This document shows positions 2,036 to 50,573 of a stretch of 64,000 nucleotides of DNA, piece after piece. The stretch is from the NCBI GenBank assembly GCA_024277815.1, contig JAJRUM010000058.1, forward strand, positions 1 to 64,000, read 5' to 3'. How positions within the stretch are numbered: position 1 is the stretch's first letter; each line of letters begins with the position of its first letter. The notes beneath the pieces are model-generated. The model searched no databases. It saw only the letters and a program-made list of their open reading frames with translations, and was not told the DNA's origin. The DNA is from Gammaproteobacteria bacterium. GTDB lineage: Bacteria > Pseudomonadota > Gammaproteobacteria > Xanthomonadales > SZUA-36. A program made the position numbers and the translations under genes.

Positions 2036-4627
2036 ATGCAACAAGATATCTCCCGCCGCTGGATTGTCATGAAGTTCGGCGGCACCAGTGTCAGCAAGGC
2101 GGAGTTCTGGGAAACCATCGCCAGCCAGGCGCAACAGCGCAGCACCGATGGCTGGCACACGCTGATCGTGGTTTCTGCACTGAGCGGGGTGACAGATTTG
2201 TTGACCCGGCTGGCTAAAGGTTGCGGGAAGACCGAGCGCGAGGAAGTACTGAAAGATATTGAAGGCCGGCATGTCACCTTGTTTGCCAGCCTTGGTCTGC
2301 AGCCAGGAGACCGGTTCCTGAGTGCCTGGCAGCACTTGCTTGAACTGGCAGGGCAGCACTCTGCTGACCCGGATGCATCACAGCAGGCACGGATACTGGC
2401 CTGCGGCGAGCGGCTGTCGAGTGCACTGGGCCAGCAGGCTCTGCAGCACCGCGACATTGATACCCACCTGCATGACGCGACCGAACTACTGACGGCGGAT
2501 GGTGGTTATGATGATTCACCTCTGTCTGCAAGTTGTGGTGCCTGGTGTGAACCCCAATTGGAAGCAGCGCTGGCGGCTAAGGGAGCCGTACATATCACCC
2601 AGGGCTTCCTGGCCGCAGGCCCGCAAGGAGGGACCTGGTTGCTGGGCCGAGGCGGATCCGATACTTCAGCGGCCTGCCTGGCCTCTCGGCTGAGTGCGGA
2701 AAAGCTGGAGATCTGGACTGATGTACCCGGAATATTTACCGCCGATCCGAGGGTGGTACCGCACGCCTACCTGTTACAACGGCTCAGTTTCAGCGAAGCC
2801 CAGGAACTGGCCTCGATGGGGGCCAGAATCCTGCATCCGCCGAGTGTGCGTATCTGTAAACAGGCGGCAATCCCGTTGCAAATCAGGGATACCGGCCGGC
2901 CGGAAATCGTCGGCACTTATATCGAGCCACGTTCGGCCGCAACTGATGCGCAGGTCAAAGGCATCGTCAGCCGCCGCAAGATCACGCTGGTGATGATGGA
3001 CAACCCGTCGATGTGGCGGCAGGTCGGTTTCCTGGCCGAAGCTTTTGAGTTGTTCCGCAAGCACGGCCTTTCTATTGATCTGGTCTCCACATCAGAGTCC
3101 AGTGTTACCGTCAGTCTTGACCCGGCCCGGCCCGGGGTGGATAACGATGAGGTACTGGCTGCGCTGCTCAAAGACCTGTCAGTGCTGTGTGATGTACAGC
3201 TACGCACCAACTGCGTATCCATCAGCCTGGTGGGCAACGCCATTCGTACCATCCTGGGTCGCTTATCCGAGGCGCTGGATGTGTTCCAGGACCGTAAAGT
3301 ACACATGGTCACCCAGTCGGCCAACGACCTGAACCTGACGCTGGTGGTGGATGCAGAGCATGCGGATCGCCTGGTGCAAAAACTCCATGAACTGCTAATC
3401 TCCCCACAGGTCGGGCAGCGGCCTGAGTTTGGCGACAGCTGGATGGTGTTGACCGGCCCGGCCAGAAAACCCGCTGCAGACCCCTGGTGGCGCACTGAAG
3501 CCAGCCGCCTGGGGCAGTTGATGGGTAGCCGGCCGAGTGCTTTTGTTTATCACCTCGAGTCCATTCGTAACGCAGCGCAGGCGCTGCAATCAATGAATGC
3601 TGTCAGCCGCATCCTGTATGCGATGAAGGCCAATGATCACCCCTCGGTGCTGCGTACCCTGCATGCTGAAGGCACTGGCTTTGATTGCGTTTCGGTCGCC
3701 GAAATCCACCACCTGCGCAGTGTTATCCCGGCACTGGAGCCTGGAGAGATTCTGTTCACGCCCAATTTTGCGGGCCGGGATGAGTACCGCGAAGCGCTTG
3801 AGATGGGCGTACAGGTGACGATTGACAACATCCACCCGCTGCTTGAATGGACAGAATTGTTTGTCGGCCACGAGGTATTCCTGCGGGTCGACCTGGATGT
3901 CGGCCACGGCCACCACAAGAAGGTCATCACTTCCGGATCACACTCCAAGTTTGGTATTGCCATTGACCAGCTTGCTGAACTGCAGGCTGTTTTGGAAGCT
4001 AACAATATCCGTGTCACCGGCCTGCATGCGCATACCGGCAGTGGCGTCAACGATGCGACCGTGTGGGGCGAGCAGCTGCAGCGCATGTTCGAAGTGGCGC
4101 CGCTGTTTCCCAGTGTGCGGGTGCTCGACCTCGGTGGCGGCCTCGGCGTGCCCGACCGGATAGGGCAGCCAATGATGGACATACAGCGGGTAGACCAATT
4201 GCTGGGCGAGACCATTGCGTCATTCAGCAGCCAACAGCAGGTCGAGGTCTGGCTGGAGCCCGGCCGCTACCTGGTTGCTGCCGCCGGCGTGTTGCTGGCG
4301 CGTGTGACACAACTGAAATCCAAGGGCCAGTACCACTACCTGGGCCTGGAAGTTGGCATGAATACGCTGATCCGCCCAGCCCTGTATGGCGCCTACCATG
4401 AGATCGTCAACCTGTCGCGCCTCGACGAACCCGCCGTGCAAAGGGTCAACGTTGTCGGGCCCATCTGTGAATCCGGCGATATCCTGGGCGAGAGCCGCTT
4501 CCTGCCGAATAGTGAGGAAGGCGACATCATGCTGATCGCCAATGCCGGTGCCTATGGGCGTGTTATGTCGAGCCATTACAACCGCCGGGAACCGGCTGTG
4601 GAGTTGATATTTGAGGATGAGGTATGA
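2036..4627 (+). CDS. Bifunctional aspartate kinase / diaminopimelate decarboxylase (LysC-LysA fusion)
   Basis: This one 863-aa polypeptide carries the first and last enzymes of the lysine/DAP pathway. The N-terminal part (about 1-450) is aspartate kinase: it opens with the KFGGTSVS phosphate-binding motif and has GRGGSDTSA and DVPGIFTADPR, then two ACT-like regulatory repeats. The C-terminal part (about 490-863) is the PLP-dependent, alanine-racemase-fold decarboxylase: YAMKANDHP holds the PLP lysine, followed by HTGSGVND, the glycine loop DLGGGLGVP, EPGRYLVA and GPICESGDIL. ATG 2036 follows an AAGGA Shine-Dalgarno. Similar fusions are known in Xanthomonas/Xylella relatives. The fusion would let lysine feedback on the kinase act on the same polypeptide that makes lysine; that last point is inference. 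Confidence 0.94.
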   Translation: MQQDISRRWIVMKFGGTSVSKAEFWETIASQAQQRSTDGWHTLIVVSALSGVTDLLTRLAKGCGKTEREEVLKDIEGRHVTLFASLGLQPGDRFLSAWQHLLELAGQHSADPDASQQARILACGERLSSALGQQALQHRDIDTHLHDATELLTADGGYDDSPLSASCGAWCEPQLEAALAAKGAVHITQGFLAAGPQGGTWLLGRGGSDTSAACLASRLSAEKLEIWTDVPGIFTADPRVVPHAYLLQRLSFSEAQELASMGARILHPPSVRICKQAAIPLQIRDTGRPEIVGTYIEPRSAATDAQVKGIVSRRKITLVMMDNPSMWRQVGFLAEAFELFRKHGLSIDLVSTSESSVTVSLDPARPGVDNDEVLAALLKDLSVLCDVQLRTNCVSISLVGNAIRTILGRLSEALDVFQDRKVHMVTQSANDLNLTLVVDAEHADRLVQKLHELLISPQVGQRPEFGDSWMVLTGPARKPAADPWWRTEASRLGQLMGSRPSAFVYHLESIRNAAQALQSMNAVSRILYAMKANDHPSVLRTLHAEGTGFDCVSVAEIHHLRSVIPALEPGEILFTPNFAGRDEYREALEMGVQVTIDNIHPLLEWTELFVGHEVFLRVDLDVGHGHHKKVITSGSHSKFGIAIDQLAELQAVLEANNIRVTGLHAHTGSGVNDATVWGEQLQRMFEVAPLFPSVRVLDLGGGLGVPDRIGQPMMDIQRVDQLLGETIASFSSQQQVEVWLEPGRYLVAAAGVLLARVTQLKSKGQYHYLGLEVGMNTLIRPALYGAYHEIVNLSRLDEPAVQRVNVVGPICESGDILGESRFLPNSEEGDIMLIANAGAYGRVMSSHYNRREPAVELIFEDEV

Positions 4628-5502: not shown

Positions 5503-7389
5503 TTAACGTGCTCCTGCCGTTTGTGGCGTAAACCACACGGGTGAAGAATAGGCACGTTCCTGAATAGTCGCAACGGCCTCTGCCGGTATTTCTGTGCCAA
5601 ACTTGCGGGAGTCGTACAGTGTCCAGCGAGGGGTTGGGATTTCCAACACACGGACATAGTAGAAAGCACGTTGCGACGGGTTGAAATCCGGATCAATCCA
5701 GAAGGTCTGGAACTGGGGTGCACCGATTGAGTTTCTGTAGCTCGGTGTGCTGGTATCTACACTATTTCCGACTGGTGTTCTGCAGCGACCGTCATCACCA
5801 ATTTTGCGTCCATCGGAAACGGCGACGTCGTAAATTTTTTCCTGCGTGTTGCCATCAGAATCCAGCCAGCCCTTGATTACCTGTACGCGGTCGAGGTTTG
5901 CACCGTCTGGGTCGCGCAATGCCTGGATAAGGAATGTCGGGGCTGCGCCGTCATCGAGGTTCAGGTCACCACCCATGGGTACGCCATTCTGATAGCCATA
6001 CTTCGCCAGTCCAGGCCGGCTGAGGTCATCTGCACTAAAATGACCACCAGCAAACAGACGCAGGCGGATACGTGTTCCCGTGGTTGCGTAAACTTCCCTG
6101 CGAGCGAGCGCATCCCACAGGGCTTCACGTGTATTTTCCCTGGCCCAGACAGCTGCCAGACCAGAAGCACTGGTTTGCCAGGCCAGGTTCTTTACTTCTG
6201 GCGCCCCCATTCTGCCGGTGATAGCCAGTTGCATACGTTTAGTCCTGACTTTTGGTTCCAACAGGGATACTTTCCCAAAAAAATTATTTTCTGTTGTGGC
6301 TGCCAACGAGGTGTGGGAATCAGTCGAGCCAATCATGCCAAATTTGAAAGGGTTAACACCCAGTTTCTGTTCCCAGGCAAGCCCGCTCTTGAGCGCTTCA
6401 CGGGCATACTCACGCGGCAGCATATCGTTGGTCTTGGGCTGGGTGCCAAAGCTGCCTTTGTCCCAGGTCTCGAAATCTGCAAATTCGTCTGTAGGTGACA
6501 GCAGTGGGTGGGCTTCTCCATCCCCCTTTATCTGGGTTACCTCATACAGGGGTTCCCAACGTGCACGGGTCTCTGCATAGTGTCGGCTCAGTGGCTTGCT
6601 GGCCATGGTAACCGCATTAAACATCAGCCCATTGGAGAGGTTTCCATTGTGTGGGATGGCGAGTATCTGGCCACCGGTACGCCTCTCGTAGTCAGCCATC
6701 CAGGCCCACAGATCCTCCGGGTCTGAAGTGTCGTACAGGGTGATGGGCAGCTGTTGGTCAGCTCTTTGCTTGTCGTCACGAAAAATGACCACGCGATGCA
6801 GATTGTTGCCGTTTGGCATGGAGGTCCACTCAAACCCGATAAGGGCAGTGAATTGACCAGGGTCGTTAAATTGTTCAGCGATGGTAGTCTGTCGTTCCCA
6901 GAAGCTCTTGACCACATCCTGTAAATCAACCAGCGGGTCGCCTTTTTCCATCCGGGTTCTTGACCACAGTTCGTATGCTTCGGTGTTTTTGCCCGCTTTG
7001 ACCAGTTCAGAGAGTTGAGTGCCGATTTCGGTTTGTAGTAGCCGCACATTCGATTCTGCAATCATGGGCGCCAGCCCAAGGCTTTCTGCGTGATCGGCAA
7101 TGACCAGTAAATCCAGTGGTCGCTGCAGGCGGGCTTTAAGTCCTGTGCTCGAGGTTACTACTTCACCCTGCGCAAAGCGGTAGGCTTCCGCAGGGCCCAG
7201 TGTGTTGGCAATCATGCCGGCATCACTCGAGTAGGACGTGTGTAAGTGGGTGTCGCCGAAATAGACCTGGTTAGGGTAACTGTCTTCAACGTAGGGTGAG
7301 TAGTTCGAGATTTCGTCCGCCGAAGCATACTCCGCGACAAGGGTGAGCACACAGAGCGCAGTAGTGGTGAGTAGGTTTGATATATTCAT
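5503..7389 (-). CDS. Exported DUF3604-family protein, copy B
   Basis: Member of the DUF3604 family, whose conserved His/Asp motifs resemble PHP-type metal-dependent phosphoesterases; the substrate is not established. The ORF track starts at 7455, but that overlaps the upstream gene; ATG 7389 has an AAGGAA Shine-Dalgarno and begins a clean signal peptide (MNISNLLTTTALCVLTLVAE, likely cleaved after ASA). The mature protein (about 628 aa in all) shows the metal-type motifs FGDTHLHTSYSSD, LLVIADHAES, IPHNGNLSNG and GSTDSHTSLAA, and a conserved tail AYSSPVWFTP. It lies 25 bp downstream of a paralogue of the same size and probably shares its transcript. Export to the periplasm is inferred from the signal peptide. 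Confidence 0.85.
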   Translation of the reverse strand: MNISNLLTTTALCVLTLVAEYASADEISNYSPYVEDSYPNQVYFGDTHLHTSYSSDAGMIANTLGPAEAYRFAQGEVVTSSTGLKARLQRPLDLLVIADHAESLGLAPMIAESNVRLLQTEIGTQLSELVKAGKNTEAYELWSRTRMEKGDPLVDLQDVVKSFWERQTTIAEQFNDPGQFTALIGFEWTSMPNGNNLHRVVIFRDDKQRADQQLPITLYDTSDPEDLWAWMADYERRTGGQILAIPHNGNLSNGLMFNAVTMASKPLSRHYAETRARWEPLYEVTQIKGDGEAHPLLSPTDEFADFETWDKGSFGTQPKTNDMLPREYAREALKSGLAWEQKLGVNPFKFGMIGSTDSHTSLAATTENNFFGKVSLLEPKVRTKRMQLAITGRMGAPEVKNLAWQTSASGLAAVWARENTREALWDALARREVYATTGTRIRLRLFAGGHFSADDLSRPGLAKYGYQNGVPMGGDLNLDDGAAPTFLIQALRDPDGANLDRVQVIKGWLDSDGNTQEKIYDVAVSDGRKIGDDGRCRTPVGNSVDTSTPSYRNSIGAPQFQTFWIDPDFNPSQRAFYYVRVLEIPTPRWTLYDSRKFGTEIPAEAVATIQERAYSSPVWFTPQTAGAR

Positions 7390-7414
7390 GAGAGTTTCCT
7401 TCACATTTAAACCA

Positions 7415-9352
7415 CTATGGTGTGTACCAGATTGGTGATGTATAAGCTCTTTCAATGGTAACCATCGGAACCTCGGTTGACATCTTTATGTTAAAACGAA
7501 GTTGGTCATAGGCAGTCCAGCGTGGGGTGGGTATTTCAAGCACACGCAGGTAGTAAAAAGCAGCCTGGGCAGGATTAAACTCGGGGTCTCTCCATACGGT
7601 TGAAAGCTCGGGATCACCAATGGAATTGCGCCAACTGGCAGTTGCAACATCTACAGTATTGCCAACGCTTGGTAGCTTACCATCCGTACCGCGTTGCCGA
7701 TGGTCGGCATCGCCCCATACCACGTCAAAGACTTTCTCGTGAGTTTTGGCGTCTTCATCCAGCCAGCCTTTGACAACCTGGATACGATCCAGGTTTCCGC
7801 TTTCCGGGTCTTTCATAGCAGCCACCAGAAAGGTGGGAGACCGACCTTGTGGCCGTTCAGGTAATTCTCCTCCCATCGGAACCCCCCGTGAATAGCCGGC
7901 GTCAACCAGTTGGTGTGTCAGTGTGTCTTCTTCCGAAAAATCCCACCCACCAAAGAAACGAACACTAATACGGGCACCGGTGGTGCCATAGACCTCTTTG
8001 CGCTGCATCGCGTCCCATATGGCTTCGCGGGTGTTTTCAGTGGCCCAGACTGCGGCATAGCCACCTGACAGGTAATGCCAGCCAAAGTGCGTTGCATTAT
8101 TGTCACGCCTGGCGACGTGACTCCAGCGGTTTGGCGATGGTAACTCGCTGGCATGCTTGCCAAAATAGTTATTCTCTTCAACTGCGGCCAGCGCCGTGTG
8201 TGCATCTGTTGAGCCCAGCATACCGAACTTGAATGGGTTGGTGCCCAGTTTGTGTTCCAGCAACAAACCGTTCTTGAGTGCCTCACGAGCATACTCATAC
8301 TGAAACATATCCGGTGTTTTAAGTTCTTGTAGTGTCAGGTTACCCAGTTCCCAGCCTTCAATGCCATATCCGGCAAACTCATCATCCGGCGAAAGTTGGG
8401 GGTGCGATTCGCTGGCACCCTTTATCTGGGTGACTTCAATCAGGGGTTCCCAGCGGCTGCGTTGCTGCACGTAAGCGCTATCCAGTAAGCCGCCCTCAAA
8501 ATTGACCATCGCAAACATACGTCCATTGGACAAGTTACTGTTGTGTGGAATGGCCAGTACCTGACCACCTGTGTTCTTCTCATAGTTGGCAAGAAACTCC
8601 CAGAGCTTTTCCGGGTCTTCACTCAACCAGGCAGAGAAAGGCAGTATCTGATCAGTTTTTTTCTTACCGTCGCGAAATACCACAACCCTATGCAAGTTGT
8701 TACCACCGGGAACAGAGGTCCACTCGTACCCAATCAGTGCAGTAAATTGTCCGGGCGTGTTAAACCGGTCGGCCAGTTCCGTATAGTTATTCCAGACACT
8801 TCGCATTAACGGTATGGCAGTTTCCGGATCGGTGATCAGTGTCGGCATGGTGCCTGAAGTGTGTGCCTTTATAAGCTCGCTGGCAGCGCGGGCTGCAGCT
8901 TCGCCACCCTCATTCATCATTTCATGCCAACGTTTTATGGTCGGATCGGTCAGCAGATTTGAGTTACCGGCGTAGATTTCAGCACCAATCCCCAGGCCAA
9001 CGGCGTGATCTGCAATCACCAGGAAGTCCAGCGGCTGCGACAGTTTCGCTGTCTTGCCTGCCAGGTACTCAACTTCTTCACCTTTTGCAAACCGGTATGC
9101 TGCTTCGGGACCGAGACGGGTACCATAGGCAAATGCATCACCGGAGTTTGAGGTGTGCAGGTGGGTGTCGCCCCAGAAAACACGAGTGGGGTAATTCCGG
9201 CCAGCATAGGGCGAATAAGCTACTTGCCCTTGTTGGTTATCGTTTTGGCCTGTGTGGGTGCCTTCTTCACAATTTCCGGAGACCAGGAAACAGGTACCGA
9301 GCAGGACGATGACAGGCCTGCTTATATATTTGGTGATACGGTGATTTCTCAT
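7415..9352 (-). CDS. Exported DUF3604-family protein, copy A
   Basis: This 645-aa paralogue of the next gene is first in a two-gene minus-strand operon. It has a hydrophobic N-terminal export signal (VIVLLGTCFLV). A cysteine follows at about residue 28, but the preceding SGN does not make a good lipobox, so an ordinary signal peptide is likelier. The same motifs recur: WGDTHLHTSNSGD, FLVIADHAVG, IPHNSNLSNG, GSTDAHTALAA and the tail AYTSPIWYTP. The two copies are clearly diverged, so the duplication is not recent. It diverges from the acyl-CoA ligase-phaC-phaZ operon across a 134-bp gap that holds a TGTC-N8-GACA dyad. Confidence 0.85.
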   Translation of the reverse strand: MRNHRITKYISRPVIVLLGTCFLVSGNCEEGTHTGQNDNQQGQVAYSPYAGRNYPTRVFWGDTHLHTSNSGDAFAYGTRLGPEAAYRFAKGEEVEYLAGKTAKLSQPLDFLVIADHAVGLGIGAEIYAGNSNLLTDPTIKRWHEMMNEGGEAAARAASELIKAHTSGTMPTLITDPETAIPLMRSVWNNYTELADRFNTPGQFTALIGYEWTSVPGGNNLHRVVVFRDGKKKTDQILPFSAWLSEDPEKLWEFLANYEKNTGGQVLAIPHNSNLSNGRMFAMVNFEGGLLDSAYVQQRSRWEPLIEVTQIKGASESHPQLSPDDEFAGYGIEGWELGNLTLQELKTPDMFQYEYAREALKNGLLLEHKLGTNPFKFGMLGSTDAHTALAAVEENNYFGKHASELPSPNRWSHVARRDNNATHFGWHYLSGGYAAVWATENTREAIWDAMQRKEVYGTTGARISVRFFGGWDFSEEDTLTHQLVDAGYSRGVPMGGELPERPQGRSPTFLVAAMKDPESGNLDRIQVVKGWLDEDAKTHEKVFDVVWGDADHRQRGTDGKLPSVGNTVDVATASWRNSIGDPELSTVWRDPEFNPAQAAFYYLRVLEIPTPRWTAYDQLRFNIKMSTEVPMVTIERAYTSPIWYTP

Positions 9353-44411: not shown

Positions 44412-44513
44412 CGTATGAATTAGCGAAAATATTGGTGAAGTATAGCTGAATACCCTACTTGTTGATCCACATTTGACAGTCTTGGTTCCGGTCGGTATCG
44501 TTGAGCACCGAAA

Positions 44514-44529
44514 ACACAAGATATTGTGT
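44514..44529. promoter_or_regulatory. NrdR box 1
   Basis: ACACAAGATATTGTGT matches the 16-bp NrdR palindrome (ACACwATATATwGTGT) at all but one position. It lies 32 bp, three helical turns, upstream of a second box, the standard arrangement for NrdR repression of ribonucleotide reductase genes. Confidence 0.85.
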
Positions 44530-44545
44530 TTCGAGAGCGGGGGAG

Positions 44546-44561
44546 GCACAATAACTTGTGT
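44546..44561. promoter_or_regulatory. NrdR box 2
   Basis: GCACAATAACTTGTGT matches 13 of 16 NrdR positions and abuts the TATAAT element at 44563, so a bound repressor would block RNA polymerase. Confidence 0.78.
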
Positions 44562-44562
44562 C

Positions 44563-44568
44563 TATAAT
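44563..44568 (+). promoter_or_regulatory. Probable -10 element of nrdJa promoter
   Basis: A consensus TATAAT 34 bp before the nrdJa ATG, right after NrdR box 2. No consensus -35 is seen at 17 bp. Confidence 0.55.
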
Positions 44569-44601
44569 CAAATAAAACCAAAAGATTATGCAGGATAATT
44601 C

Positions 44602-46749
44602 ATGAGCAGTGTTCGGGTTGAGGCCATAAGCACTGATATTCAAGCAGTTCCTTTCCAGGAAGCATCGCTCGATATCTGGGACAAAAAATACCGACTCAAG
44701 TCAAAACTTGGTGAAAATATTGACGCCGATATTGATGACACCTACAAAAGAGTTGCGCGTGCAATTTCCAGGGTTGAAAAAACCCGCGAACTGCGCGAGC
44801 AATGGTATGAGTCATTTCTGTGGGCGCTGCGTCGTGGGGCCATACCTGCCGGCAGAATAACCTCCAATGCTGGCGCGCGTGAGCACAAGCCAGCTACCTC
44901 AACCATCAATTGTACGGTTTCAGGAACCATCAAGGACTCCATGAATGGTATTCTTGATAAAGTTCATGAGGCCGGACTGACACTGAAGGCTGGTTGCGGA
45001 ATAGGTTATGAGTTTTCCACGCTGCGTCCCAAAGGTGCCTATGTATCGGGTGCCGGGGCTTATACTTCCGGCCCGCTGAGCTTCATGGATATCTATGACA
45101 AGATGTGCTTCACCGTGTCTTCGGCCGGTGGGCGCAGGGGTGCCCAGATGGCAACCTTTGAGATCGGCCACCCGGATGCCATGGAATTCATCCGCGCCAA
45201 GCGTGAAGATGGCCGCTTGCGGCAGTTTAACTGCTCGCTGTTGATCACCGATGAGTTTATGCAGGCAGTGGCCGCTGATGAGGACTGGTCGTTGGCTTTT
45301 CCCATTACACCGCAGGAAGTGATAGAGCTGGATATCGATGATCCCGACCAGGTTCTGTGGCGTGAATGGCCGCTGGTAGATGATTATGTTACCCGGGAAG
45401 ACGGCCTGGTGGCCTGCAAGGTCTACAAAAAAGTACCGGCACGCCGTATGTGGGACATGATCATGTCATCCACTTACGATTTTGCCGAACCGGGCTTTAT
45501 CCTGATCGACCGCATCAATGAAATGAATAACAACTGGTTCTGCGAGAATATCCGCGCAACCAACCCCTGTGGTGAGCAACCTTTGCCACCTTATGGTGCC
45601 TGTTTGCTGGGTTCAATTAACCTGACCCGGTTTGTTGACCAGCCCTTTACAGATGGCGCGGCGTTTAATTGGGAAGCATACCGGAAAGTCGTGAAGGTAT
45701 TTACCCGCATGCTGGATAATGTCGTTGAAATCAATGGCCTGCCTCTTGGTAAGCAGCGTGACGAGATCGCGCGTAAGCGCCGTCACGGCATGGGTTTTTT
45801 GGGCCTGGGCTCAACGCTGACTTTGCTGGGCATGAGATACGGCGACGAAAAGTCACTGGAGTTCACAGAGAAGGTAGCCCGTGAAATGGCTGTTGCCGGC
45901 TGGCAGGAAGGGCTGGAACTGAGCCGCGAAAAGGGGCCGGCACCGATCATGGAAGAAGAGTTTGAAGTGACTGCTGCCATGTTGCGTAAGCGACCGGAAA
46001 TGGCGGCTGACGGTTTCAATGTCGGGGATCCCGTGTGTGGGTCTGTATTGCATACCAGGTACAGCCGATATATGCAGCAAATTGCCGAGATAGAGCCTGA
46101 ACTGGTTGCGGCGCTGACCGAAGAAGGTGCCCGCTTTACCCATCATACTTCCATCGCCCCCACCGGGACGATATCACTGTCGCTGGCAAACAATGCATCC
46201 AATGGGATTGAGCCAAGCTTCGCCCATCACTATAGCCGCAATGTGATCAGGGAAGGCAAGAAGAGTAAGGAAAAGGTTGAAGTATTCAGCTTTGAATTGC
46301 TGGCTTATCGGGAGTTGGTGAATCCGGGTGCGATGCCGGATTCCAGTGATGAAAGTACAAAATTGCCGGATCAGTTCATCGCAGCCGATGAAGTTTCTCC
46401 GACGCAGCATGTTGATATCCAGGCCGCCGCGCAGAAGTGGATTGATTCATCTATTTCCAAGACGGCCAATGTGCCGACTGACTATCCATACGAAGATTTT
46501 AAAGAGGTCTATACTTATGCTCACGGCAAAGGTTTAAAAGGCTGCACGACTTTCCGTTTCAACCCGGAGGTTTTCCAGGGCGTACTGGTCAAGGAGGAAG
46601 ACCTGGCAAACACCACTTACCGCTTTGTATTGGAAGACGGCGAAGTGGTTGAAGTGAAGGGTAATGAAGAAATCGAATACGATGGTGAGGTACACTCTGC
46701 TGCCAACCTGTTTGATGCCCTTAAAGAGGGCTATTACGGAAAATTCTAG
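44602..46749 (+). CDS. nrdJa: Class II (adenosylcobalamin-dependent) ribonucleotide reductase, large part NrdJa
   Basis: Reduces ribonucleotides to deoxyribonucleotides with adenosylcobalamin as radical source, with or without oxygen. The 715-aa protein has the barrel motifs NCTVSGTIKDS, KAGCGIGYEFSTLRP, and the finger-loop cysteine and glutamate in ATNPCGEQPLPPYG. It stops before the C-terminal cysteine pair; those residues are on the next gene. In Pseudomonas the enzyme is split in the same way. NrdR boxes precede it. Confidence 0.95.
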   Translation: MSSVRVEAISTDIQAVPFQEASLDIWDKKYRLKSKLGENIDADIDDTYKRVARAISRVEKTRELREQWYESFLWALRRGAIPAGRITSNAGAREHKPATSTINCTVSGTIKDSMNGILDKVHEAGLTLKAGCGIGYEFSTLRPKGAYVSGAGAYTSGPLSFMDIYDKMCFTVSSAGGRRGAQMATFEIGHPDAMEFIRAKREDGRLRQFNCSLLITDEFMQAVAADEDWSLAFPITPQEVIELDIDDPDQVLWREWPLVDDYVTREDGLVACKVYKKVPARRMWDMIMSSTYDFAEPGFILIDRINEMNNNWFCENIRATNPCGEQPLPPYGACLLGSINLTRFVDQPFTDGAAFNWEAYRKVVKVFTRMLDNVVEINGLPLGKQRDEIARKRRHGMGFLGLGSTLTLLGMRYGDEKSLEFTEKVAREMAVAGWQEGLELSREKGPAPIMEEEFEVTAAMLRKRPEMAADGFNVGDPVCGSVLHTRYSRYMQQIAEIEPELVAALTEEGARFTHHTSIAPTGTISLSLANNASNGIEPSFAHHYSRNVIREGKKSKEKVEVFSFELLAYRELVNPGAMPDSSDESTKLPDQFIAADEVSPTQHVDIQAAAQKWIDSSISKTANVPTDYPYEDFKEVYTYAHGKGLKGCTTFRFNPEVFQGVLVKEEDLANTTYRFVLEDGEVVEVKGNEEIEYDGEVHSAANLFDALKEGYYGKF

Positions 46750-46763
46750 GTAGATTACAGACC

Positions 46764-47483
46764 ATGACTATTAAAATAACCAAGAATATTGCCGGTTACG
46801 AAGTCGTTCGACCGGAAGAAGAACTGGCAGCCAAAGAGGCGGCCCTGGAAGCACGTAAGACACGTGGCAGAGCCAAGGTGATTCGCATGACCGAGAAGGT
46901 TTTGCGACCGGAAGGCATGGAGGCACTGGAGGGGTCCACCTACAAAATCAAGACACCTCTGGATGATCATGCGATGTATGTGACCATCAATGACATCATA
47001 CTCAATCTGGGTACCGAACATGAACAGCGCAGGCCGTTTGAAATATTCATAAATTCAAAAAACATGGATCATTTTCAATGGATTGTGGCGTTGACGCGGC
47101 TGATGTCAGCCGTCTTCCGCAAGGGTGGGGATGTGACCTTCCTGCCCGAAGAGTTGCAGGCCGTATTTGATCCAAAGGGTGGTTATTTCAAGCCCGGCGG
47201 TAAATTCATGCCATCCATTGTTGCCGAGATTGGTGCGGTTATAGAGCACCATTTACAAAAGATCGGCCTGATGGAAAAAGAGACCCTGTCGGAACAGCAG
47301 CAACTGATTCTGGACCAAAAACGCGCTGAAGTAGATGCGCAAAAGACAGCCACGGAGTCAGCCGAAGAGGACGCCGAATACCCGGCCTCAGCCACTTTAT
47401 GCAATAAGTGCAATACCAAGGCCGTGGTCGTGATGGACAATTGTGCGACCTGCCTGTCGTGTGGCTATTCCAAGTGCGGGTAA
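46764..47483 (+). CDS. nrdJb: Class II ribonucleotide reductase, C-terminal subunit NrdJb
   Basis: Carries the C-terminal part of the split class II reductase. The 239-aa protein has an NrdJ-type domain (PLDDHAMYVTINDI, FEIFINSKNMDHFQWI, SAVFRKGGD) and ends in a cysteine cluster (CNKCN ... CATCLSCGYSKCG). The cluster probably includes a zinc ribbon and the thiols that re-reduce the active site. It starts 14 bp after nrdJa, so one transcript is expected. Confidence 0.93.
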   Translation: MTIKITKNIAGYEVVRPEEELAAKEAALEARKTRGRAKVIRMTEKVLRPEGMEALEGSTYKIKTPLDDHAMYVTINDIILNLGTEHEQRRPFEIFINSKNMDHFQWIVALTRLMSAVFRKGGDVTFLPEELQAVFDPKGGYFKPGGKFMPSIVAEIGAVIEHHLQKIGLMEKETLSEQQQLILDQKRAEVDAQKTATESAEEDAEYPASATLCNKCNTKAVVVMDNCATCLSCGYSKCG

Positions 47484-47621
47484 AAGTTTCAGTGGTTACC
47501 GTCAGCTGATATATCCGCCAGGCCCGGACGGACTTTCCCGGTCGGCCTGCCAATTTACAAGATTATATTTTCATTGGCTGAATAGGCCACCCATCCCCGT
47601 TTTCACTGCTATAGTGGGTAT

Positions 47622-48929
47622 ATGTTGTTACCTCAGGAACTAATACGAGCGAAGCGCAACGGTCAGATATTGACGGCAAGCGCGCTCCAGGACTTTGTCA
47701 ATGGCGTTGCCAGCGGACAGGTCAGTGATGCCCAGGTGGGGGCCTTTGCCATGGCTGTGCACTGCCAGGGAATGAGTATGGCCGAACAGTCGGTTTTCAC
47801 GCTGGCGATGCGTGACTCCGGTCACTGCCTCAGTTGGCCGGGACTCGATGGGCCGGTGCTGGACAAACATTCAACCGGTGGTGTCGGCGACCTGATAAGC
47901 CTGGTGCTGGCTCCCATGCTGGCCGCCTGTGGAGCCTATATACCAATGATTTCAGGTCGGGGCCTGGGGCATACCGGTGGCACGCTGGATAAGCTGGAAA
48001 GCATCCCCGGTTTCAATGTCTACCCAAGCCCGGAGTTGTTTAGCCAGACGGTCCGTGAAACAGGCTTGGGCATGACCGGCCAGGGCAAAGACCTGGCACC
48101 GGCAGACGGCCGGATTTATGCAATTCGGGATGTCACCGCAACTGTGGATTCAATACCCCTGATCGTTGCGTCGATCCTTTCAAAGAAGCTTGCCGAGGGC
48201 CTGGATGGCCTGGTGCTGGATATCAAAACGGGTAATGGCGCCTTTATGGTTGAGCGCAATGCCGCCAGGGATCTGGCGGTCAACCTGGTGGAAGTTGCTG
48301 AGTTAGCCGGATTGCCTTGCCGGGCGATTATCACCGATATGAATCAACCCCTGGCCAACAGCGCCGGCAATGCCCTGGAAATATTTGAAGCCATCGGCTT
48401 TCTGAAGGCGGATTACCAGCACCCGAGACTGCATGAGGTGGCGCTGTCCCTGTGTGCTGAACTGATGTTGCTGGGCGGTCTCGCTGACAAGCCCAAACCG
48501 GCGCGGTTGCAACTACAGGCTGTGTTGGACGATGGCACGGCGGCCGAGCATTTTGCGCGCATGGTGGCACTGCAGGGTGGCCCGGCAGACTTACTGGACA
48601 GGCCGGACAAGTACCTTGATAAGGCCCCGGTTGTCCGGCCTTACGAGTCGCCGGCCAGTGGTTGCATCGAATACATTGATACCCGGATGGTTGGGCTCTG
48701 CGTTGTACAGTTGGGTGGTGGCCGGCATAGTGTCGAAGACCTGATAGACCACCGCGTGGGGTTGTCCGGGCTCTGCCACGTGGGTGACCAGGTGCAGCAG
48801 GGGATGCCGTTGGCGATCATCCATGCAGCAGATGAAACGGCCTGGCAGGCGGCAACCAAAGGCCTGGATGCCGCGATCAGGGTTGGCCGGGATACAGATA
48901 CGCTGCCGGCGGTATACGAATATTATTAG
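47622..48929 (+). CDS. deoA: Thymidine phosphorylase
   Basis: Splits thymidine (and deoxyuridine) to base and deoxyribose 1-phosphate. The 435-aa protein has the phosphate-binding signature KHSTGGVGDLIS, SGRGLGHTGGTLDKLESIPG and DIKTGNGAFM. It starts a salvage run deoA-deoD-cdd. There is no Shine-Dalgarno before ATG 47622, and a TATAGT at 47610-47615 would place transcription start at or near the ATG, so the message may be leaderless. Confidence 0.96.
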   Translation: MLLPQELIRAKRNGQILTASALQDFVNGVASGQVSDAQVGAFAMAVHCQGMSMAEQSVFTLAMRDSGHCLSWPGLDGPVLDKHSTGGVGDLISLVLAPMLAACGAYIPMISGRGLGHTGGTLDKLESIPGFNVYPSPELFSQTVRETGLGMTGQGKDLAPADGRIYAIRDVTATVDSIPLIVASILSKKLAEGLDGLVLDIKTGNGAFMVERNAARDLAVNLVEVAELAGLPCRAIITDMNQPLANSAGNALEIFEAIGFLKADYQHPRLHEVALSLCAELMLLGGLADKPKPARLQLQAVLDDGTAAEHFARMVALQGGPADLLDRPDKYLDKAPVVRPYESPASGCIEYIDTRMVGLCVVQLGGGRHSVEDLIDHRVGLSGLCHVGDQVQQGMPLAIIHAADETAWQAATKGLDAAIRVGRDTDTLPAVYEYY

Positions 48930-48963
48930 GCTCTGACAGGCACCAGAAATCCGAGGAAAAAGC

Positions 48964-49689
48964 ATGACCGGAACTCCGCATATTGAAGCCGCGCGCGGCG
49001 ACTTTGCTGAAACTGTATTAATGCCGGGAGATCCCCTGAGGGCGCAGGCACTGGCCAAAAACCACCTGAAAAATGTGCGCCAGGTTAACAGCGTCCGTAA
49101 CATGCTGGGATTTACCGGAACCTACAAAGGCAAGCCGGTTTCTATCATGGGTTCGGGAATGGGGATGCCATCGATAAGTATATATGCCCATGAATTATAT
49201 GACTATTATGGTGTTAAACAAATCATAAGGGTAGGTACATGTGGTGGGCTATTGGCTGATATGCAGGTGGGTGACCTGGTACTGGCTGCGGCTGCCAGCA
49301 CAGATTCAGGCATGAACCGGCAACGTCTCGGTGGCTGGGATTTTTCTGCTGTAGCGGATTACGATTTGCTCAGCCGTGTGCATGACATGGCCGTAGAAAA
49401 CGGTTTAAAAATCCGTACCGGGAACGTTTTTGCAACCGACTGGTTTTATCACCCCGACGAAGCCTTCATTCAGAAGTTACAGAAAATGGGCATGCTGGCC
49501 CTGGATATGGAGTCGGCTGCCCTGTACGCCCTGGCTCAGCAGCACGGCGCACGCGCATTAACCATACTGTCTGTTAGCGATGTAATCCCGACCGGTGAGC
49601 AGGCGTCACATGAGGCCCGCCAGAACGCGTTTGGTACCGTTATTGGCGTCGTTCTGGATGCTGTGCTGGACAGGGCACCAGCGGTATGA
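48964..49689 (+). CDS. deoD: Purine nucleoside phosphorylase, DeoD type
   Basis: Hexameric enzyme that phosphorolyses purine nucleosides. The 241-aa protein has the family opening TPHIEAARGDFAETVLMPGDPLRA, GSGMGMPSISIY, RVGTCGG and MESAALYALA, with the acid of the active site in SVSDVIPTGE. GAGGAAA precedes ATG 48964. Its stop overlaps the cdd start by 4 bp. Confidence 0.96.
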   Translation: MTGTPHIEAARGDFAETVLMPGDPLRAQALAKNHLKNVRQVNSVRNMLGFTGTYKGKPVSIMGSGMGMPSISIYAHELYDYYGVKQIIRVGTCGGLLADMQVGDLVLAAAASTDSGMNRQRLGGWDFSAVADYDLLSRVHDMAVENGLKIRTGNVFATDWFYHPDEAFIQKLQKMGMLALDMESAALYALAQQHGARALTILSVSDVIPTGEQASHEARQNAFGTVIGVVLDAVLDRAPAV

Positions 49690-50105
49690 CCGGACCTGTT
49701 GTTGATGTTGATAAAGCCGTTGCCAGCCTGCTGGACAGTGCCCGCGCGGCCAGTGACCATGCGTACTCACCCTACAGCGAGGCCAGGGTAGGGGCCTGCG
49801 TACTGGATGAAGACGGCAATATACACAGTGGCTGTAATGTAGAAAGTGCATCGTATGGATTGACGCAGTGTGCCGAGCGTAACGCGCTGGCCAGTGCGAT
49901 CAGTGCCGGAATGCGCCCGGGCGGCGCACATGTGCTGTTGATTTTCGCGTCAGGTTTTGAAGTATTGTCACCCTGCGGTGCCTGCCGCCAGGTGATGAGC
50001 GAGTTGCTGCCTGCGGATGCGGTGGTCATTTCATGCGTCAGCGACAGCGAATATCGCTACTGGTCGGTGAGTGAGTTGCTACCCGATCCTTTTATTCTGA
50101 AATAA
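49686..50105 (+). CDS. cdd: Cytidine deaminase
   Basis: Small tetrameric-type zinc enzyme that converts cytidine and deoxycytidine to uridine and deoxyuridine. The 139-aa protein has YSPYSEARVGA, the zinc/catalytic CAERNALASAI (Cys plus Glu) and PCGACRQVMSEL. It overlaps deoD (ATGA), which supports one salvage operon with deoA and deoD. Confidence 0.95.
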   Translation: MTGPVVDVDKAVASLLDSARAASDHAYSPYSEARVGACVLDEDGNIHSGCNVESASYGLTQCAERNALASAISAGMRPGGAHVLLIFASGFEVLSPCGACRQVMSELLPADAVVISCVSDSEYRYWSVSELLPDPFILK

Positions 50106-50126
50106 GTCACCCTGGGAGACAGAACA

Positions 50127-50573
50127 ATGCAGTGGGTTCTTAAATTGCTGGGTATTGCTATCCTGGCGCTGAGCACCGTCGTATTCGCCGGTGGGCCAAA
50201 GGTTACACACTATCCGATACCGGGTAACGAGGACCTGCCTTTTTCCGATGCCGTGCAGGTTGGGCACATGCTGTACCTTTCCGGCCAGATCGGTGTGAAT
50301 CCAGCGACTTCCAGGCTGGTTGAAGGTGGTATCACTGCGGAAACACGGCAGACCATGGAGAACATCAAGGCCAGCCTGGAAAGATACGGGTCTTCAATGG
50401 CAGAGGTTGTAAAGTGCACGGTGTTTTTGGCAGATATCCAGGAATGGTCGGCGATGAATGCAGTGTATATCAGCTACTTCCCGAATGACCCGCCTGCCCG
50501 CAGTGCATTCGGCAGCAGTGGGCTGGGCATGGGCGCCCGCACTGAGATCGAGTGCATTGCGACTGTGAAATAG
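50127..50573 (+). CDS. Exported RidA/YjgF-family protein
   Basis: RidA proteins hydrolyse reactive enamine/imine intermediates and are normally cytosolic. This 148-aa member has a clear signal peptide (WVLKLLGIAILALSTVVFAG) before a complete RidA domain (SDAVQVGHMLYLSGQIGVNP, NIKASLERYGSSMAEVVKCTVFLADI, and RTEIECIATV at the end). Export makes a different, periplasmic role likely. It is 21 bp after cdd and the next gene follows closely, so these may share the salvage transcript. Confidence 0.88.
   Translation: MQWVLKLLGIAILALSTVVFAGGPKVTHYPIPGNEDLPFSDAVQVGHMLYLSGQIGVNPATSRLVEGGITAETRQTMENIKASLERYGSSMAEVVKCTVFLADIQEWSAMNAVYISYFPNDPPARSAFGSSGLGMGARTEIECIATVK

Follow-up and report, generated by a model that had tools for sequence, protein, structure and literature searches.

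The window, i.e. the whole stretch of 64,000 nucleotides that was analysed, contains a split gene pair for a class II ribonucleotide reductase (RNR), preceded by two NrdR boxes and a likely promoter. The features are, from upstream to downstream:

44473..44478, plus strand: TTGACA, -35 element of the likely nrdJ promoter (consensus scan, family conservation)
44496..44501, plus strand: TATCGT, -10 element of the same likely promoter, 17 bp past the -35 element (consensus scan, family conservation)
44507..44509, plus strand: predicted transcription start, 6-8 nt past the -10 element, placed by promoter geometry
44514..44529, unstranded: NrdR box 1, ACACAAGATATTGTGT, 15/16 against the consensus
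44546..44561, unstranded: NrdR box 2, GCACAATAACTTGTGT, 13/16, 16 bp past box 1
44563..44568, plus strand: TATAAT after box 2, probably a part of the 5' leader and not the main -10 element
44592..44595, plus strand: AGGA, Shine-Dalgarno-like, before nrdJa (read in the sequence)
44602..46749, plus strand: nrdJa, catalytic part of an adenosylcobalamin-dependent class II RNR, 715 aa (TIGR02504, 567.8 bits)
46764..47483, plus strand: nrdJb, C-terminal part of the split class II RNR, 239 aa, with a Cys-rich tail

The region 46764-50573 continues after nrdJab with deoA (thymidine phosphorylase), deoD, cdd and a Rid-family gene, all on the same strand; nrdJb and deoA are separated by 138 bp, and the order nrdJab-deoA-deoD-cdd is seen again in three loci of relatives (L031, L033 and L077). 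Elsewhere in the window, an 863-aa ORF (2036-4627) looks, from its translation, like an aspartate kinase-diaminopimelate decarboxylase fusion, and two neighbouring minus-strand ORFs (5503-9352), each about 650 aa long, resemble tandem paralogues with the motifs VFWGDTHLHTS and VYFGDTHLHTS.

The sequence-only reading had placed a split class II RNR downstream of the boxes, and the protein matches bear this out. The catalytic domain resides in NrdJa, and the separate Cys-rich protein NrdJb aligns to positions 590-759 of NF006417, which correspond to the C-terminus of class II enzymes that are not split; in most relatives nrdJb likewise lies beside nrdJa. NrdJa has no ATP-cone, and no other protein of the draft genome (2.98 Mb, 93.8% complete) matches PF02867. 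A search for other RNR operons, suggested earlier as a check, detected none besides nrdJa-nrdJb in this draft: neither a class I small subunit (NrdB) nor a second class I/II large subunit was found, and class III NrdD stayed below the cut-off. The split class II enzyme thus appears to be the only RNR of the genome, a draft from which a second RNR could be missing. Among the family members examined, many likewise have a single PF02867 locus; in several the domain matches two or three times, in part as fragments.

The regulator itself was located as well. The draft genome holds one nrdR, in the arrangement glyA-nrdR-ribD (the flanking genes were identified by their translations), on a separate contig from nrdJ. 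Its product is a TIGR00244 equivalog (204.4 bits) with a PF03477 ATP-cone, and residues 1-153, the full core, align with solved NrdR structures. The zinc cysteines C3, C6, C31 and C34 can be read in the translation, as can D15 and R17, which are named as DNA-contact residues (PMC9110341). Since a genuine nrdR with zinc ribbon and ATP-cone is present, the objection that the genome might lack the repressor falls away. The ATP-cone of NrdR is the sole one found in the draft genome. An ATP-cone is present in all family members examined, and in some relatives within the order the large subunit has its own.

Direct sequence comparison confirmed the box matches (15/16 and 13/16) and the 32-bp distance that had been read initially. 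Box 1 deviates from the NrdR consensus ACACWATATATWGTGT only at position 7, and box 2 at positions 1, 9 and 10; with starts 32 bp apart, a gap of 16 bp separates these two 16-bp palindromes. This spacer falls within one of the two known ranges, 14-17 bp or 24-27 bp, of which 14-17 bp is favoured for NrdR binding (PMC12051234). The pair scores 28/32, the best in the window at start spacings of 30-33 bp, and exceeds all of 200 dinucleotide shuffles of the window, in which the best pair reached 19 to 23 and never more; the best single box scores 15 in the window versus at most 14 in the shuffles. Pattern searches of the draft genome at 32 and 31 bp spacing gave the genome-wide counts. At 32 bp spacing, the 2.98 Mb contain the exact core pair just once, at the nrdJ site, so that no second such pair marks a further NrdR target in the draft. 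At 31 bp spacing only one-mismatch sites turned up, at about the control rate, and they were rejected as additional targets. Single boxes with two mismatches were no commoner in the draft genome than the control pattern; therefore, it is the pair that carries the signal. The RNR gene follows directly, with the nrdJa start 40 bp after box 2.

The pair before nrdJ is kept in relatives. Box 1 is near-invariant among them, the core bases of box 2 are conserved across the family loci, and the spacer measures 16 bp in 31 of 32 family loci, a partly promoter-selected set of relatives whose common ancestry means that locus counts are not independent. Many Lysobacter/Pseudoxanthomonas-type relatives (L034-L102) have a different layout, with a weaker box 2 and the box pair 200-340 bp upstream of nrdJa versus 88 bp here, which implies a long leader.

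The sequence-only reading further held that the boxes and the TATAAT fix the promoter. This assignment did not hold. The hexamer is there, albeit not strictly abutting box 2 as had been stated, because one base (C) intervenes, and at the -35 distance of 17 bp it faces GGGGAG, i.e. it has no -35 partner. Among the 32 family loci it is an exact TATAAT in only seven, elsewhere being mostly CATAAT. What is conserved instead is TTGACA-N17-TATYKT upstream of box 1, in fixed geometry. In the window, TTGACA-N17-TATCGT (44473-44501) is the sole sigma-70 match that a consensus scan found on the plus strand between 44240 and 50600, although its -10 element agrees with the consensus at only 4/6 positions. 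The family forms of this element, TATCTT, TATTGT and TATCGT, lie 11-12 bp upstream of box 1.

Two sets of loci speak to this placement. For 62 loci with a good box 1 that were fetched by NrdJ protein, a promoter of at least 8/12 ends 10-20 bp before the box in 51, and the shuffle control for the same loci yielded 1.5 promoters on average and 5 at most. In the second set, fetched by the boxes alone, TTGACA-N17-TATNNT stands 11-12 bp before box 1 in all 26 distinct nrdJ sites of the family; a 27th row was an off-register repeat of L177 and was excluded. In Methylobacter-like loci the best -10 element overlaps the box instead, and promoter placement therefore varies between lineages. Provided that the upstream promoter is real, the boxes here do not overlap the core promoter hexamers, as the likely -10 element ends 12 bp before box 1. 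Most likely, then, the nrdJ promoter lies upstream of both boxes, and the operator would cover the initially transcribed region from about +7 to +54.

Alternatively, a weaker promoter at the TATAAT might serve nrdJ in addition to the conserved upstream promoter, with the NrdR operator covering both. Both elements are present in the window and they are mutually compatible, but the downstream one has neither a -35 element nor conservation, and we regard this arrangement as unlikely. Even less probable is a main -10 element at 44563-44568, which would place the boxes over the -35 region and upstream of it and let NrdR block polymerase access. The hexamer is perfect and suitably distant from the ATG, and five of its six letters are kept in 12 of the 32 relatives; yet, besides the GGGGAG and the scarcity of exact matches mentioned above, the -35 scores of the relatives are mostly 2/6, and the hexamer sits within a broader conserved A-rich leader. 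It is highly implausible that the palindromes function at the mRNA level, by folding the leader into hairpins or one long box 1-box 2 hairpin, and not as a DNA operator: the leader in the window folds well (z -3.7), yet when everything except the boxes was shuffled, 27 relatives averaged a z of -0.44 and folded in different ways, Rfam gives no match, and the bases and spacing fit NrdR.

Two candidates for regulation by the leader RNA were rejected, a leader hairpin because the fold excess disappeared once the boxes were held fixed, and a B12 riboswitch or other leader RNA because the window and 12 related loci gave no Rfam match. Between box 2 and the nrdJa ATG (44569-44600), an A-rich block AAATAAAACCAA, followed by AATTA, is conserved across the family and is perhaps a translation enhancer.

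Returning to the upstream promoter, we consider it highly probable that both boxes together make up a single NrdR operator on nrdJa-nrdJb, with the promoter at 44473-44501, and that it mediates dATP-dependent repression at the stage of the open complex or of promoter escape. NrdR control of nrdJ, as first proposed from the sequence, is, as an inference, well supported by the optimal spacing, the genuine nrdR, the split class II RNR downstream and the conservation of the pair. The nucleotide rule given with it needs a slight amendment: dATP is indeed involved, but ATP alone promotes no binding, and dATP is required together with ATP or ADP (PMC9110341, PMC12176259). NrdR binds box pairs as a tetramer (PMC9110341, PMC12176259). 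What was observed directly here are the boxes, the presence of the genes, the conservation of the sequence and the geometry; NrdR binding, its response to nucleotides, the start site and the step that is repressed are inferred as follows. At high dATP, NrdR carrying dATP and ATP (or ADP) would assemble into the tetramer and occupy both boxes, which lie on one face of the DNA about three helical turns apart. Transcription from TTGACA-N17-TATCGT is predicted to start near 44508; box 1 would then span roughly +7 to +22, and box 2 roughly +39 to +54. Bound NrdR would then obstruct the polymerase site on its downstream side and keep hold of the DNA that is transcribed first, so that no open complex forms or the polymerase fails to escape from the promoter. 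Once dATP falls, ATP-loaded NrdR would leave the DNA and nrdJ would be expressed.

This corrects the promoter assigned to a clean NrdR target, and the locus offers a simple natural case in that the draft genome yielded a single RNR, a single ATP-cone and a single operator pair. Should the whole operator prove to be downstream of the start site, it provides a handle on which transcription step NrdR blocks; otherwise, this is ordinary regulation. A broader reading, which we put forward tentatively and hold to be rather doubtful, is that a family of Gammaproteobacteria regulates its often only, ATP-cone-free class II RNR through an NrdR pair wholly within the first ~55 transcribed bases, with repression at promoter escape or early elongation, and that in genomes like this one the repressor carries the cell's only dATP-sensing ATP-cone.

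Among known systems, nrdJab of Pseudomonas aeruginosa is the closest case, as two NrdR boxes likewise precede the split nrdJa-nrdJb (PMC4409342), and in an nrdR mutant nrdJa is up under aerobic conditions (PMC4409342). There, however, box 1 reportedly overlaps the -10 element (PMC4409342), whereas here the likely -10 element precedes both boxes; P. aeruginosa further possesses RNRs of classes Ia and III (PMC4409342), while here no RNR other than class II was detected. In Streptomyces coelicolor an NrdR pair also stands before a class II RNR gene, nrdRJ (PMC9110341), and the tetramer on both boxes of this operator has been solved by cryo-EM (PMC9110341). Its nrdR belongs to the RNR operon (PMC9110341), in contrast to the gene between glyA and ribD on another contig in our genome. 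Boxes 1 and 2 of Escherichia coli nrdAB, spaced by 15 bp, are the true pair of that operon and likewise reach downstream of the promoter region (PMC12176259), and an operator that extends past the start site is therefore not new; unlike nrdJ here, nrdAB encodes a class Ia enzyme and has a further box 0 in the -10 element (PMC12176259). The nrdJ operator is an ordinary NrdR operator, a known type of switch whose promoter assignment has been corrected.
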